From Deltaproteobacteria bacterium (GTDB taxonomy: Bacteria > Desulfobacterota > GWC2-55-46), in NCBI GenBank assembly GCA_016182655.1, contig JACPGB010000038.1, forward strand, positions 1 to 36,717: 36,717 nt of DNA. The letters are read 5' to 3'. The translations under genes and the position numbers were made by a program. The notes below the pieces were generated by a model. It saw only the letters and a program-made list of their open reading frames with translations, was not told where the DNA came from and searched no databases. Positions within the stretch are counted from its first letter, which is position 1. Every line of letters begins with the position of its first letter. Shown here in pieces: positions 26,098-32,138 of the stretch.

Positions 26098-26172
26098 CCG
26101 TAGTTTTCCCTTAGTAACTCATCGTAACAGGCGCTACGTCCTTCGCCATGCCGCCCCCGCCGCAGGCGTGTA

Positions 26173-26985
26173 TCAAGTGCCGCCGTGACCCTCAAGGTCG
26201 AACCTCGGCGAATGGGAGAAGAACTCGTAGGGGTTACGGAAGGCTATCTTCTCTATATCGGATTCGGGGAAGAGTCCGCTTTTTCTCATGAGCTCGCAGA
26301 CCTTCGGCACCGCGAGCGGGTCAGAATACCCCCAGTCAGCCGAGCCGTTCACTATCATCTTCCTCGTCCCGTAGCGGACAAGCATATCGACGGCGCGCCC
26401 GGCGGTGAGCTTCGTGACATAATAGACGGTCATCCCGGCCCAGCAATTTGTCGAAAGGGCGAGCTCTATCGTCTCTTCGGTGTTGTGGTCTATTACTATC
26501 CTCTCCTCATTGACGCCTTCCTCCTTGATGATGGCGATTATCCGCTCTATCCCCTTCTTCTTGTCGTGGTGGGGCGAATGGACGACCACAGGCATCGAGC
26601 GTTCCTCGGCCATGCGGAGTTGGAGCCTGAAGGCCTCCTCCTCTTCCTTCGTTATGAGGTCGAGGCCTATTTCCCCTACACCCACGACGCGCTCCCTTTC
26701 CAGATACCCCTCCATCGCGCCTATCACATGGCGCGCGATCGGCGAGCGCGCCTCCTTGGGGTTAAGGCCGATCATCACGTAGTGCCTTATGCCGTACTCG
26801 AGCGCGCGCCGCGTCTCGTGGGAGATCATCTGCTCCCAGTAGTCCTCGAAAGACGCTACAGCCCTCTTGTCGATCCCGGCCCAGAACGAGGGCTCCACGC
26901 ACGCGACGATGCCGGAGGCCGACATGTTGTGGTAATCGTCGGTCGTCCTCGATACCGTATGGATGTGAGGCTCTATTATGCGCAT
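26173..26985 (-). CDS. TatD-like metal hydrolase (EboB-like)
   Basis: 270 residues of the TatD/amidohydrolase superfamily. The metal ligands are all visible: HIH in EPHIHT (residues 7-9), Glu in GVGEIGLD, His in VVHSPH, His in VIDHNTEET and Asp in NGSADWG. The N-terminal segment (DDYHNMSASGIVACVEPSFWAG) and the NGSADWGYSDPLAVPK block set it apart from DNase-type TatD and resemble EboB of ebo clusters. It should hydrolyse a small phosphorylated or amide substrate in the cytoplasm; identity unknown. It is last in a five-gene minus-strand cluster, 42 bases after the EboE-like gene. Confidence 0.85.
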   Translation of the reverse strand: MRIIEPHIHTVSRTTDDYHNMSASGIVACVEPSFWAGIDKRAVASFEDYWEQMISHETRRALEYGIRHYVMIGLNPKEARSPIARHVIGAMEGYLERERVVGVGEIGLDLITKEEEEAFRLQLRMAEERSMPVVVHSPHHDKKKGIERIIAIIKEEGVNEERIVIDHNTEETIELALSTNCWAGMTVYYVTKLTAGRAVDMLVRYGTRKMIVNGSADWGYSDPLAVPKVCELMRKSGLFPESDIEKIAFRNPYEFFSHSPRFDLEGHGGT

Positions 26986-27027
26986 GTCGACCTCCGTGGC
27001 TTTGCGAGGCCTTTCGGGCTTCCTTGG

Positions 27028-27867
27028 CTACAACAGCCTCTCCAGGTACTCGTACGCCTTTCGGGCCGCGTCCTCCGGCTCCTCCGAGTACGTATAGAGC
27101 TCGACGGTTATGAATCCGTCGTAGTTGTATTTCCTGTGCAGACCGAAGAGCTTCGCAAAGTCCATGTCCCCGAGGCCGGGGATCAAGTGGTAATGGACTC
27201 TCCCCTTTATGTCTTCGAGGTGGACGTGAAAGACCCTGTCGCAGAGCCTTTCGAATACGGCCTCGGGGTCTTCCCCGACGCAGTGGCTGTGGCCGAGGTC
27301 GAGGTTCGCGCCTATGCAGGCCGAAGGGATGGTATCGATGAGGGCGCGTAGCTCGGAAGAGTATTCGATCAGAAGCCCCGGCTCATACTCGACACCTATG
27401 CGGACGCCGTTTTCTTCGGCGTAAAGGGCTATCTCCGAGAGCGACGCTTTCAGGCGCGCGGTCGCCTCTTCGGGTGTGGAGCCCGGATAGATGTGCCCCG
27501 AGGTGACCGAGACGTTCCGGCAGTCGAGCTCTCGCGCGAGATCCACGCACCGCTTCGTGTATTCTATCCGCCATGCCCTCGCCGGCTCGTCGGAGGATGA
27601 GAGCGAAGGCTCCAGCAACGGGTCCCAGAACGGGCCGTATCCGTAATATCCCCGGACGGTGTTGGCGTTTATGTTGGAGACCTCTATGCCGGTCTCCTCG
27701 ACCGCGCGCCTGACATCTTCGATCATCTTCAGATCGAGGTCGTCCATGAAGAGGTGCGGCACGTCGGCGAGGAGTTCGACCCCCGCGTACCCGATCCCGG
27801 CGATCTTCCTTACCGCCTCCGCGGCCGTGTATCCGGTGAATGCGTTGGTGCTGAAAGATAGCTTCAT
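27028..27867 (-). CDS. Sugar phosphate isomerase/epimerase-like TIM barrel (EboE-like)
   Basis: 279 residues of the AP-endonuclease-2/xylose-isomerase-like superfamily. The metal site is complete: Glu in GVEYEPG, Asp and His in ANLDLGHSHCVGEDP, His in FHVHLED and Glu in ITVELYTYSEEPE. The N-terminus (MKLSFSTNAFTGYTAAEAVRKIAGIGYAGVELL) and the DLGHSH motif match EboE-type proteins; IolE/IolI of inositol catabolism are the main alternative given the adjacent inositol-phosphate synthase. Probable substrate: a cyclitol or sugar phosphate. The start overlaps the end of the synthase gene by four bases. Confidence 0.85.
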   Translation of the reverse strand: MKLSFSTNAFTGYTAAEAVRKIAGIGYAGVELLADVPHLFMDDLDLKMIEDVRRAVEETGIEVSNINANTVRGYYGYGPFWDPLLEPSLSSSDEPARAWRIEYTKRCVDLARELDCRNVSVTSGHIYPGSTPEEATARLKASLSEIALYAEENGVRIGVEYEPGLLIEYSSELRALIDTIPSACIGANLDLGHSHCVGEDPEAVFERLCDRVFHVHLEDIKGRVHYHLIPGLGDMDFAKLFGLHRKYNYDGFITVELYTYSEEPEDAARKAYEYLERLL

Positions 27868-29069
27868 CCCGCCACCCTTTCATTGCTTGCTGCGTTAGCG
27901 TATTCGATGAGTAGCCTGTACTGGTCGTGGAGCGAGTGTACCTCGACCCCTAATGGCGCCTTGAAGAACGACGCGAGCTGAGTCATGAGCCCCGCCTCCC
28001 CTCTCCTTTTGGCAAGGACCGATAGCCTCGCGAGGTCGATGACGAGCGGCGCGGCGAGGATGGAGTCGAACCCCTGCCAGACGAACTGCATGGTCATCTT
28101 CGCGCCCATGAATCCTTTGAAGTGGATGAAGTTCCAGGCCGTCTTCTGGTCGTCGAGCGAAGGCACATAGTGGATATGCACGCGCGAGTGCGGCGCGTAG
28201 CCGAGCGCCTTAGGCAGGAGCGCGTCCTTGGATATTATCTTCGACTCCCTGTTCTCCGGTGTGTCGAGCACATGCCCGTCCATGTTGCCGAGCATGTTGA
28301 ACCCCTCCCAACTCAAGACCTCGAGGTTCCGGCAGGTGAACATCGGTATGAGCGCGGATTTCACCAGCGTCTCTCCGGTCTTGCCGTCGTTGCCCATGAC
28401 CGGGACCCCGGTTTCCTCCGCGAGCCTGACAAGGCCGGGTACGAGCGCGCCATTGGAAGGCGTGAAGTTGACATACGGGCACCCTTCGAGGACCGAGGCC
28501 AATGCGTAGAGGGTAGAGGCGCGCACCAGGTCCTTTCTGTCGTCATCCATGGCAAGGAAAAGCCCTTCCGGGGTCAAGAGGGGGCCGGATACCTCTATCG
28601 GCGGCTCGGTCGAGGCGAGGTTTACGACCACCGCCTCGTCTACCGAGTTCCGCTTTTTAAAATCCGCTATGTCGGAGCGGAGCTTCCTCAACTGGTCCTT
28701 AAGGTGCGGTTCGGGCGCGGCGTTTGAGGCGAGCGCTTCTATCGCCCTGCCGCAGTTGGTCGCGAACCCCTTGTAGAAGTCCGCCTCATTATCGGCGAGG
28801 CTCTCCTTTATCGCGGAGAGCACCTCTTCCCCGAGGTTTACGCTTTTTATGAACCTCTCCGCGCTCTGGATCGCGGTAGCTTCCCTTATGTCCCATCCGC
28901 CGAAGACCATATCCTCGGGCTCGGGGAGAGAGAGCGCGGAGAACTCCTTCGCCTCGGTCACCATCCCGGTCCTCTGGCAGAGGCCTTTTTTGAGGGAAGC
29001 GGCCCCGGCGAGGACCGCCGCGGATATATAACCGGAAGACCCTACGAACAATACGCCAGTTCTATTCAT
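27864..29069 (-). CDS. Myo-inositol-1-phosphate synthase family protein
   Basis: 401 residues. The N-terminal Rossmann motif is VGSSGYISAAVLAGAASL. The synthase core is clear: GNDGKTGETLVKSALIPMF, SWEGFNMLGNMDGHVLDTPENRESKIISKDALL and FKGFMGAKMTMQFVWQGFDSILAAPLVIDL correspond to the NAD-binding, catalytic Lys and tetramer blocks of Ino1. Expected reaction: D-glucose 6-phosphate to 1L-myo-inositol 1-phosphate with NAD recycled. The N-terminus is divergent, so the true substrate could be another sugar phosphate. It overlaps the upstream cytochrome gene by eight bases and the downstream TIM-barrel gene by four. Confidence 0.87.
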   Translation of the reverse strand: MNRTGVLFVGSSGYISAAVLAGAASLKKGLCQRTGMVTEAKEFSALSLPEPEDMVFGGWDIREATAIQSAERFIKSVNLGEEVLSAIKESLADNEADFYKGFATNCGRAIEALASNAAPEPHLKDQLRKLRSDIADFKKRNSVDEAVVVNLASTEPPIEVSGPLLTPEGLFLAMDDDRKDLVRASTLYALASVLEGCPYVNFTPSNGALVPGLVRLAEETGVPVMGNDGKTGETLVKSALIPMFTCRNLEVLSWEGFNMLGNMDGHVLDTPENRESKIISKDALLPKALGYAPHSRVHIHYVPSLDDQKTAWNFIHFKGFMGAKMTMQFVWQGFDSILAAPLVIDLARLSVLAKRRGEAGLMTQLASFFKAPLGVEVHSLHDQYRLLIEYANAASNERVAG

Positions 29070-29442
29070 TCATTGACCCCGCGTGTTGGTTGGACGGCTT
29101 GCGCAAGCCGTGTCTCCGAAGCGCCTTCAGATACGATACGAGGTCGTCGAGGTCGCTGTCGCTTATATGTTCCTTTGGGAACGACGGCATCGCGCCGAAG
29201 CCCTTTCTCACCTGAAATTTTATGAGGAGCCCGGGGAGCGGCTTGTTGTTTATCGCCGGGCCGAGCCCGGCCTCGCCTCCGGGGTGGCACTGGGTGCAAT
29301 TTTCCTCGAAGACCTTTTTGCCTCGCGCGATACGGGGCTCCGAGTCGTCGAAAGGGCCAATGAACAGCTCGCCCATCCTTGCCGAGCCGCATCCAAAGAC
29401 AAGGAGCGAGACGGTTATCGAGAGCAACAATACCCTCTTCAT
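29062..29442 (-). CDS. Lipoprotein monohaem cytochrome c
   Basis: 126 residues. A lipoprotein signal (MKRVLLLSITVSLLVFGC; lipobox VFGC, lipidation at Cys18) leads to a small class I cytochrome: CTQCH at residues 49-53 and axial Met85 in GAMPSFP, with IARGKKVFEENC before and LVSYLKALR after, the usual first and last helices. It should be membrane-anchored in the periplasm and accept electrons from the dehydrogenase encoded just upstream, whose stop overlaps its start (ATGA). Confidence 0.93.
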   Translation of the reverse strand: MKRVLLLSITVSLLVFGCGSARMGELFIGPFDDSEPRIARGKKVFEENCTQCHPGGEAGLGPAINNKPLPGLLIKFQVRKGFGAMPSFPKEHISDSDLDDLVSYLKALRRHGLRKPSNQHAGSMNE

Positions 29443-30908
29443 CTCCCCGGCTCTTTTTTAGTTATCCGCCAGACAACACCCGTTGCCGTCCTGGGCTTAG
29501 CGCCTTCCTCGTCATGCAAAAGGACACCGAAGTCGACTATGTAGAGGGCCGTGCCGTCGGGATTGAACCGCGCGGCTACGGGCCGCTCAAACCCGCCCTT
29601 CTTGAGCCATGACGCCGGGCCGTTCGTCTTGCCCTTGTTGACCGCGAACTCCTCGACATCCCCTGTCTTCACGTTCACGCGTACGACCTTAAAGCCGACC
29701 GGGGCGAGGACCTTCCCGGTTGTCGGGGCCTCGTCCCCGAACTGGGCGACAAAGGCATGGCCCTTGAGACCGAAGCCCCTGTCGCGTGAGAAATCGAATC
29801 CGCTGGAAGACGAATGGGCCGCGAATATGGCGGCGGGCCTGGGAGGTTTGCCCGGCGGCTCCGAGAAGATGAGCTCCGGTTTTTCCTTCCTGGCCGGCTT
29901 GTAGTGGTCGTGCTCATTTAACGGGTGCTCTCCGTGAAAATCCGGCCAGCCGTACCAGTTGCCTTCCTTTACCTCCCAGAGGAGGTCGCCCGCGCCGAAG
30001 ACCGCTCTGCTCCCGCGCTCGTCATAGGAGTTGTCTGTCGCGAAGAGCTTCCCCTCGGGCGAGAACGCGAGCCCGAACGGGTTCCTGAAGCCCCACGCGA
30101 CGAGCTCCGGCTCGCCGCCTTCCACGGGCACGCGCATCACGGCCCCGCTGCACGGGACAGAGCCTTTTATGACCTCGTCCGGCTCCGTCTTTTTGCCGAA
30201 GGGCGAGAACGCGCCGGTCCCGACCTTCTCTTTCGAGGCGGGATCGATAAAATCCTTCGTCTCGTAATTGATGCCCTTGAGTTTTACGTCCCTGCACGGG
30301 ATGTCGTGGAAGCCCGGATACCTCTTCGCCCAGCCGAGCCGGAAGTTGTCCTCGCCGACGACACCGGAGTTTGTCGCGGTCCCGACGCCGAAATAGAGCA
30401 TGCCGTCCGGGCCGATGGCCGGGCCGTTCGTGTGGTGGTCGCCCTTGGAGGGCAGGCCGTCCACAAGCGGCGAGATATCCCCGTCCGGGGTTATTTTAAG
30501 GACCCTGCCGCCGTCGAGCTCGCCGCCCTCCGCGACGTAGAAGTTTCCCTTGTAAAAAGTGACGCCGGTCCAAGGGCCGTTCTTGTTGCCTTCGGCGACT
30601 ATCGAGGTCGTCCCGTCGTTTTCTATTCGCAAGAGCCTCGGGGTCGTCCAGACCTCTCCGTGTGAGTACCCGGCCTCGACGACGTAGGCCCGGCCCCTCC
30701 CGTCAAAGGCGATGCCGGTCGGGAAGGTGAGCTCGCGCGCAACCGACTCTATCCTGTACCCGTCAGGCACGGCTATGTCGTTGCTGTTCACGATCCTCGG
30801 CCTGTTGAATTCCGTCTGGCCGCCTCCAGCGGAGGAGCGCATCTTGTAACAGCCCGGAAGGCCGCCGGCGAGCGTAAACGCGAGCAGAGCGCCTAAAAAC
30901 TTTCTCAA
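29439..30908 (-). CDS. Lipoprotein glucose/sorbosone dehydrogenase-like beta-propeller
   Basis: 489 residues from TTG 30908, preferred because GGGGAG lies six bases upstream and it gives an ideal lipoprotein signal, MRKFLGALLAFTLAGGLPGC (lipobox LPGC). The ATG at 30923 is the alternative, but has its purine stretch almost touching it. The mature part is a six-bladed propeller of the GSDH family: PTGIAFDGRGRAYVVEAG, GDHHTNGPAIGPDGMLYFGVG, AWGFRNPFGLAFSPEGKLFATDN and RPVAARFNPDGTALYIVDFG. Family members oxidise sugars or aldehydes in the periplasm with PQQ; a role in binding rather than catalysis cannot be excluded. Directly coupled to a cytochrome c gene, it probably oxidises a sugar or cyclitol and passes electrons to it. 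Confidence 0.88.
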   Translation of the reverse strand: MRKFLGALLAFTLAGGLPGCYKMRSSAGGGQTEFNRPRIVNSNDIAVPDGYRIESVARELTFPTGIAFDGRGRAYVVEAGYSHGEVWTTPRLLRIENDGTTSIVAEGNKNGPWTGVTFYKGNFYVAEGGELDGGRVLKITPDGDISPLVDGLPSKGDHHTNGPAIGPDGMLYFGVGTATNSGVVGEDNFRLGWAKRYPGFHDIPCRDVKLKGINYETKDFIDPASKEKVGTGAFSPFGKKTEPDEVIKGSVPCSGAVMRVPVEGGEPELVAWGFRNPFGLAFSPEGKLFATDNSYDERGSRAVFGAGDLLWEVKEGNWYGWPDFHGEHPLNEHDHYKPARKEKPELIFSEPPGKPPRPAAIFAAHSSSSGFDFSRDRGFGLKGHAFVAQFGDEAPTTGKVLAPVGFKVVRVNVKTGDVEEFAVNKGKTNGPASWLKKGGFERPVAARFNPDGTALYIVDFGVLLHDEEGAKPRTATGVVWRITKKEPGR

Positions 30909-31292: not shown

Positions 31293-31370
<78 letters not shown>

Positions 31371-31376
31371 AATTAC

Positions 31377-31424
31377 AAGGGCCGTAATTCCTTTTGAAAA
31401 TAAAGGGGTTACGGCCTTTCTGTT
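31377..31424 (+). terminator. Probable terminator of initiator tRNA
   Basis: A stem of 11 bp with one wobble (AAGGGCCGTAA with TTACGGCCTTT, 21-base loop) is followed by TCTGTTT, starting 7 bases after the tRNA. Confidence 0.6.
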
Positions 31425-31765
31425 TATGGGATTGCGCGTAGTTCTTTACCCTCTTTTTCGCCCAGCGTAACCAAATCGTAACCGTTTTCAAGGACAGCCA
31501 CCGCCTTGACCATGTGCGACGGCGCAAGGTGAGAGTACCGAAGCGTCATCGTAAGGCTCTTGTGGCCAAGTAGCCTGCTCACGGTCGTAAGGTCTACCCC
31601 CGCCATCACAAGCCAGCTTGCGAAGGTATGCCTTAAGTCGTGAAAACGGAAGTCGTTGATCCCGGCTACCCGAAGTAGCTCTCTGCCGCATTGAGGACAA
31701 TTGCCAAGGCTTTCTTCCCCGGATTTTTGGCGCTCAAAGCTACAGGCCGAACACTTCTCCCATCC
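31424..31765 (-). pseudogene. Tyrosine recombinase (phage-type integrase) C-terminal remnant
   Basis: The minus-strand frame ending at 31424 reads INDFRFHDLRHTFASWLVMAG, then VDLTTVSRLLGHKSLTMTLR and YSHLAPSHMVKA: the HxxR box, GH box and catalytic Tyr of tyrosine recombinases. Only the last 90 or so residues match; the N-terminal arm and core domains and the first catalytic Arg are absent. Upstream the frame stays open and encodes two CxxC pairs (Cys codons at 31751, 31742, 31697 and 31688) resembling a zinc ribbon, then runs into livM on the same strand in another frame. The right boundary is approximate. A position 54 bases from tRNA-fMet is typical of an integrase at its tRNA attachment site, so this is probably what remains of an integrative element. 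Confidence 0.8.
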
Positions 31766-32138
31766 CGAAAAGCGCGGGCCTCGGCACGCCCGGGATGCCG
31801 AGCGGCCCGCGAGTAAGCCCGTGCCAGTTAAGGAACACGCTGTAGATTATGACATTGAAGCCTAATGAAACGAGGGCGTAGTAATCCCCGTCGAACCTCG
31901 ATAAGACCGCGCCTATGAGGAAGGCGGCCCCGGCGGAGGCGATTATGCCTACAGCCATCGATATGAAAAAATTTACGCCGAGGCTTGTAGTCAGTATCGC
32001 CGTTGCGTACGCGCCTATCCCATAGAATGCCGCGTGCCCGCTCGCCAGCAAGCCCGTGTACCCCACGACGAGGTTCAGGCTCAGTCCGAGTATCGCGTAT
32101 ATTATGACGAGGATGGCGAGGTGCAGTATATATTCCAT
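31740..32138 (-). CDS. livM: Branched-chain amino acid ABC transporter permease LivM, truncated
   Basis: 132 residues against about 300 in complete LivM proteins. The visible half is typical: YAILGLSLNLVVGYTGLLASGHAAFYGIGAYATAIL, then FLIGAVLSRFDGDYYALVSLGFNVIIYSVFLNW and GPLGIPGVPRP, with three to four membrane helices. It ends prematurely (MGEVFGL, TAG) where the integrase remnant begins. LivG and LivF, the ATPases that normally follow, are also missing, so a deletion between livM and the integrase is likely. The transporter encoded here is incomplete unless other copies exist elsewhere. It starts 19 bases after livH. Confidence 0.85.
   Translation of the reverse strand: MEYILHLAILVIIYAILGLSLNLVVGYTGLLASGHAAFYGIGAYATAILTTSLGVNFFISMAVGIIASAGAAFLIGAVLSRFDGDYYALVSLGFNVIIYSVFLNWHGLTRGPLGIPGVPRPALFGMGEVFGL

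Follow-up and report, generated by a model that had tools for sequence, protein, structure and literature searches.

Five genes at positions 26173 to 30908 of contig JACPGB010000038.1 from a Deltaproteobacteria bacterium (assembly GCA_016182655.1) probably form a reduced member of a variant of the ebo cluster that contains the myo-inositol-1-phosphate synthase Ino1; "the window" below is the whole 36,717-nucleotide stretch analysed. The ebo cluster (eboA-F; PMC5133447, 2016; PMC6282210, 2018) is required for a scytonemin precursor to be exported and, in Pseudomonas, has been connected with the repellence of nematodes (PMC6282210). Its enzyme EboD has been posited to form a cyclitol by cyclisation of sedoheptulose 7-phosphate; a UbiA-type protein would add a prenyl chain to this cyclitol, the product being an isoprenoid-cyclitol (PMC5133447). 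More tentatively, with a little less than even confidence, we propose a second form of the ebo cluster, present in at least five bacterial phyla and in haloarchaea, in which Ino1 replaces EboD; its product would be a cyclitol with a prenyl chain, inositol in this case, serving as carrier or tag for a metabolite bound for the periplasm. This would also be the first form of the ebo pathway whose initial reaction is known.

All five open reading frames lie on the minus strand, with the order and positions of the original prediction, and the stated overlaps (4, 8 and 4 bases) and gap (42 bases) are exact. In gene order they belong to the Pfam families PF07995/PF23500 (a GSDH-type lipoprotein), PF13442 (a cytochrome c), PF07994 plus PF01658 (Ino1), PF01261 (a TIM barrel) and PF01026 (a TatD-related hydrolase). 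The same order occurs in two genomes of the same genus (protein identity about 90% and 61-81%), and a longer cluster in Nitrospira opens with the same five families, again in this order. The window proteins are 85-92% identical to those of the nearest relative, G017, and in this comparison the ratio of nonsynonymous to synonymous substitution rates (dN/dS) is 0.10-0.19 across all five genes, eboB having the lowest value. All five are genuine, intact genes that evolve under purifying selection, and the conserved order together with the low dN/dS indicates that the cluster did not arise by chance. The EboB relative, Ino1 and the periplasmic redox pair form one conserved unit, as had been predicted. 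A promoter scan gave 3 sites where 1.5 were expected, which is no evidence of promoters.

The third gene (27864..29069, minus strand) encodes Ino1. The protein has both Pfam domains of myo-inositol-1-phosphate synthases and matches the Archaeoglobus fulgidus enzyme (1u1i) with 391 bits. Its residues K277, K281, K309 and K370 align with K274, K278, K306 and K367 of 1u1i, which we take to be the catalytic lysines, and are invariant in 12 sequences. A K-x-x-x-K motif of Ino1 backs this assignment, and the reaction of Ino1 leads from glucose 6-phosphate to a cyclitol phosphate (PMC5614600). The window Ino1 is predicted from its sequence to form inositol 1-phosphate.

The two Ebo labels of the original prediction fared differently. 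The label of the last gene (26173..26985, minus strand), a TatD-related metallo-dependent hydrolase described as EboB-like, is borne out: the protein scores 347 bits with an EboB model built from proteins of annotated ebo clusters and of two Streptomyces Ino1-eboE clusters, and it falls within the EboB clade (support 100/100). The canonical TatD of the same genome reaches about 40 bits with this model. Identity as a TatD DNase was ruled out, the canonical TatD proteins of the class forming a separate clade (100/100). The label "EboE-like" for the TIM barrel (27028..27867, minus strand; xylose-isomerase-like, epimerase type; PF01261, 152 bits) had to be given up. The protein scores 15 bits with the EboE model NF035939 (cut-off 250), and the EboE clade, set apart with a Shimodaira-Hasegawa-like approximate likelihood ratio test (SH-aLRT) value of 100, does not include it; these two results rule out EboE. 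A search of the window's genome with NF035939 gave no match at E<=0.001.

The TIM barrel instead belongs to a clade of its own that accompanies this Ino1 and that we named TIM1. Its predicted structure (predicted local distance difference test score, pLDDT, 90) is most similar to the D-tagatose 3-epimerase-like protein 3wqo (Z 32), the presumed metal ligands E160, D190, H216 and E256 are conserved at the places of the ketose 3-epimerase metal ligands, and there is distant similarity to IolE and IolO. In a genus with Ino1-TIM1 alone the ligands are altered (H216R and E256D in L028:10437-11300; E256D in L031:10691-11560), as if TIM1 activity were changed or gone where the Ebo genes are absent.

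Within the class, this Ino1 was found in 14 of 62-63 genomes, all of one family; two of the four same-genus genomes searched are without it. TIM1 adjoins Ino1 in 13 of the 14, and in the remaining one (G012) the contig ends inside Ino1. An EboB-UbiA pair joins the Ino1-TIM1 core in G017, G018, G011 and G014. An Ino1 alignment scan of 84,980 species genomes yielded 80 loci, many of them on short contigs, where the absence of a neighbour is often uninformative. In Nitrospira (L046) the cluster runs GSDH-cytochrome c-Ino1-TIM1-EboB-TIM2-UbiA-EboF in one direction. Two Streptomyces loci (L140, L141) have the order Ino1-UbiA(SCO3242)-TIM-EboA-EboB-EboE-EboF with a true EboE (426 bits) and no EboD; Gemmatirosa (L147) has EboB-EboF-UbiA-Ino1-TIM with EboE divergent, and in a haloarchaeon (L149) Ino1-EboF is divergent from EboB-TIM-UbiA-TIM-TIM. 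Desulfobacterota, Planctomycetota and other loci combine Ino1 with TIM, UbiA, EboB and EboF in variable order. EboB, UbiA and EboF thus stand beside Ino1 repeatedly, in Nitrospirota, Planctomycetota, Desulfobacterota, Gemmatimonadota, Actinomycetota and Haloarchaea. According to the Ino1 tree, in which some neighbours are hidden by short contigs, Ebo genes were gained or lost several times. In some Desulfobacterota clusters (L058:10211-12263, also L060, L064, L082 and L068) YdjY-domain and squalene-cyclase-like proteins are encoded between Ino1 and TIM1.

This patchiness raises the question of whether Ino1 and TIM1 constitute an independent inositol pathway, for a lipid head group, an osmolyte or a thiol precursor, in whose operon EboB, UbiA and the redox pair merely hitch-hike. 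Ino1-TIM1 stands alone in G024, G034-G039 and many Desulfobacterota, G019 has the redox pair but no EboB, and G011 and G014 have EboB-UbiA but no redox pair. Hitch-hiking would nevertheless have to account for EboB, UbiA and EboF joining Ino1 time and again across five bacterial phyla and Haloarchaea, and for the fact that the listed eboE clusters carry either Ino1 or EboD and never both. We regard this explanation as unlikely and prefer that of an Ino1-type ebo cluster.

To compare Ino1 with EboD without favouring either, plasmid records were selected by the presence of eboE. Among 48 such records, 29 carry this Ino1, at a distance of about 3-5 kb where records were compared; in 15, a gene next to eboE matches EboD strongly, with at least 333 bits. 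Among the matches listed, the two sets share no record, a distant homolog elsewhere on a plasmid being possible; three Streptomyces records and one fragment have neither. The canonical clusters of Azospirillum, Salipiger, Mycetohabitans, Ketogulonicigenium and Deinococcus contain EboD, with no Ino1 in the stretches shown. From this mutual exclusion Ino1 appears to stand in for EboD, and the simplest reading is that it replaces EboD and would supply the cyclitol in this variant. The synthase had been noticed beside the Ebo genes from the beginning; its presence stands, and we read it as a replacement of EboD instead of an unrelated addition. Two of the Streptomyces Ino1-eboE clusters (L140:382-5721, L141:13645-17447) adjoin aromatic polyketide-type or aromatic prenyltransferase genes, which fits an association of ebo genes with aromatic metabolites.

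As originally noted, the EboC-type UbiA, EboD and EboF are missing at the window locus. That account of missing genes was correct for this locus and incomplete for the unit as such, since the unit of the relatives has an EboC-like UbiA and EboF. Between eboB and the convergent argS the window has a gap of 75 bases (26098..26172, no strand); G017 (L024:2413-3285) and G018 carry a UbiA-family prenyltransferase gene at this place. The UbiA proteins of the relatives' clusters have EboC as their best match (125-196 bits), followed by SCO3242, neither score reaching the cut-off, and form a sister clade of EboC and SCO3242 apart from CtaB, UbiA and MenA. They are also the fastest-changing member of the cluster, with 46% identity between G017 (L024:2413-3285) and G018 (L025:8632-9510) as against 61-81% for the other genes. 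Family and direct searches of the window's genome (97.6% complete) found no ortholog of the EboC-like UbiA of G017, and a location of the gene elsewhere in the genome was therefore rejected; the prenyltransferases present are of the UbiA, CtaB and MenA types only. Because G018, a more distant species, has UbiA at the same site, the most parsimonious history is that the window's lineage lost it.

With the EboF model, two PF01663 proteins of the window's genome reach 35 and 24 bits; complete EboF proteins of the relatives reach 436-484. EboD has no match in the window or at any Ino1 locus and EboA none in the window, the rest of the window's genome not having been searched for these two. With no UbiA at the site and no EboF found, the genome holds a reduced version of the cluster and could perform at most part of the proposed pathway. 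One may ask whether the reduction is in fact degeneration, so that after the loss of UbiA the remaining genes would be relics without a joint product. The empty site between eboB and argS, the failure to find EboF and the lack of this Ino1 in two same-genus genomes would all agree with such a decay. The five genes are, however, intact, and their dN/dS values, lowest for eboB, are those of genes under selection; degeneration is somewhat less likely than an independent inositol pathway, and a reduced Ino1-type ebo cluster remains our preferred reading.

The first two genes encode the periplasmic redox pair. The GSDH-type six-bladed beta-propeller lipoprotein (29439..30908, minus strand; TTG start, lipobox LPGC) scores 28 bits with PF07995, just above the Pfam cut-off, and 63 bits with the ScyE_fam model, under the cut-off of 80. 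Its predicted model is moderate (pLDDT 64); with it, the closest structures are the pyrroloquinoline quinone (PQQ) aldose dehydrogenases 2ism, 3a9g and 3das (Z 26.5-26.8), and lactonases and DFPase of the same fold match less well (Z 22-23). Pfam and structure matches, the latter with this moderate model, assign the protein the beta-propeller fold of the soluble PQQ sugar dehydrogenases. A sequence search of the PDB gave weak matches alone, to designed propellers and glucose dehydrogenase. The protein is a probable periplasmic sugar or cyclitol dehydrogenase. The monoheme cytochrome c lipoprotein (29062..29442, minus strand; PF13442, 61 bits; lipobox VFGC; one CxxCH heme site, CTQCH) is presumed to be its electron acceptor; the two genes adjoin in the relatives and in Nitrospira.

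In the class, the pair is present in the window, G017, G018 and G019. The GSDH family occurs in four genomes of the class only, each time adjoining Ino1, so that a role away from the Ino1 locus was dismissed for want of any such occurrence. The pair is an optional addition to the cluster, seen within the class only beside Ino1. In Streptomyces, a ScyD/ScyE-family propeller lies upstream of Ino1 in L141, and large GSDH-PKD-CBM6 proteins precede the Ino1-eboE clusters L110:5094-8888 and L118:4929-7499; the large secreted protein of L110 has ThuA and 3-keto-disaccharide hydrolase domains in the same frame. These upstream genes are suggestive of a parallel, and the large GSDH-containing proteins would be a second tie of a sugar dehydrogenase to the cluster.

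A dehydrogenase next to a TIM barrel could also belong to an operon for inositol or ketose catabolism, in which a cyclitol or sugar is oxidised in the periplasm and then isomerised by the TIM barrel. This would suit the resemblance of the GSDH-type protein to aldose dehydrogenases as well as the ketose epimerase fold, the metal site and the distant IolE/IolO similarity of TIM1. Yet an Ino1 with all catalytic lysines would be expected to make inositol phosphate, not to degrade it, and a catabolic route would leave EboB, UbiA and EboF unexplained, which makes catabolism very improbable.

For the Ino1-type ebo cluster, the following sequence of steps can be envisaged. Ino1 would convert glucose 6-phosphate to myo-inositol 1-phosphate, in the role of the cyclitol proposed for EboD, and TIM1 might isomerise, epimerise or otherwise remodel this cyclitol or the corresponding keto compound. 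Where the cluster is complete, UbiA would attach a prenyl chain to the head group, and EboB and EboF could hydrolyse intermediates with phosphate or ester linkages. At the periplasmic side, the GSDH lipoprotein and the cytochrome would oxidise a sugar or cyclitol and pass the electrons to the respiratory chain. The pathway is likely to yield an inositol-derived, usually prenylated compound, with a sugar or cyclitol being oxidised in the periplasm. As the window's genome has neither this UbiA nor EboF, it probably makes a soluble derivative of inositol, unless a different prenyltransferase takes over. The original idea of cyclitol phosphate production with periplasmic oxidation of a related product is plausible.

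Several observations weigh against this scheme. Many loci have Ino1-TIM1 without any Ebo gene, and Ino1-TIM1 may thus have a role of its own. The EboE-anchored Ino1 records come mostly from Streptomyces and hence are not independent. A UbiA belonging to an ebo cluster with EboD was able to farnesylate quinolines in vitro (PMC9235831), which suggests an aromatic acceptor. No PqqE above the cut-off was found in the window's genome, so that a PQQ cofactor for the GSDH-type protein is not assured, although external PQQ could be taken up. Finally, the chemical role given to the cluster is inferred.

The ebo cluster is widespread, and the Ino1 variant would give the search for its metabolite a concrete chemical starting point. 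A cyclase whose reaction, from glucose 6-phosphate to inositol 1-phosphate, is known would support the isoprenoid-cyclitol idea from independent evidence and make it testable by isotope labelling. The ebo papers searched, open-licence full texts with partial coverage, contain no mention of inositol. In open-licence full texts we also found no published description of a pathway with this gene set, in agreement with the original prediction, an earlier report still being possible.

Just upstream of the GSDH gene, between tRNA-Met(CAT) and livM, which is truncated (132 aa), lies a C-terminal fragment of a tyrosine recombinase (window 31294-31780; PF00589, 58 bits), probably the remnant of an integration at the tRNA.

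Compared with known systems, the window Ino1 resembles the A. fulgidus-type synthase (1u1i) in its full-length match and its catalytic lysines; it differs in lying in an ebo-like operon, its activity being predicted. With the cyanobacterial scytonemin scy/ebo system the cluster shares the combination of cytoplasmic ebo genes with periplasmic ScyD/E-type beta-propeller proteins, whereas the window propeller, accompanied by a cytochrome c of its own, is nearer to aldose dehydrogenases; the window annotation shows no scytonemin genes, no search having been aimed at them. The Streptomyces SCO3242-type cluster, which according to the annotation of plasmid records comprises Ino1, the SCO3242 prenyltransferase, TIM, EboA, TatD, EboE and a phosphodiesterase, likewise has Ino1 and EboB in a tight operon without EboD, in some cases with a ScyD/ScyE-family or GSDH propeller gene upstream. 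Its Ino1, however, is only 38-41% identical and its TIM protein belongs to another clade; unlike the window it has EboA, EboE, UbiA and EboF, and no related cytochrome c was seen in it. With the ebo cluster proper the window cluster has EboB in common; the relatives add an EboC-like UbiA and EboF, Streptomyces and Gemmatirosa also EboE, and there is one sugar-phosphate cyclase per cluster in both forms. In contrast to the ebo cluster, the cyclase is Ino1 instead of EboD, TIM1 is an extra family, and the window locus, which is without EboA, C, D, E and F, has the GSDH-cytochrome pair in addition.

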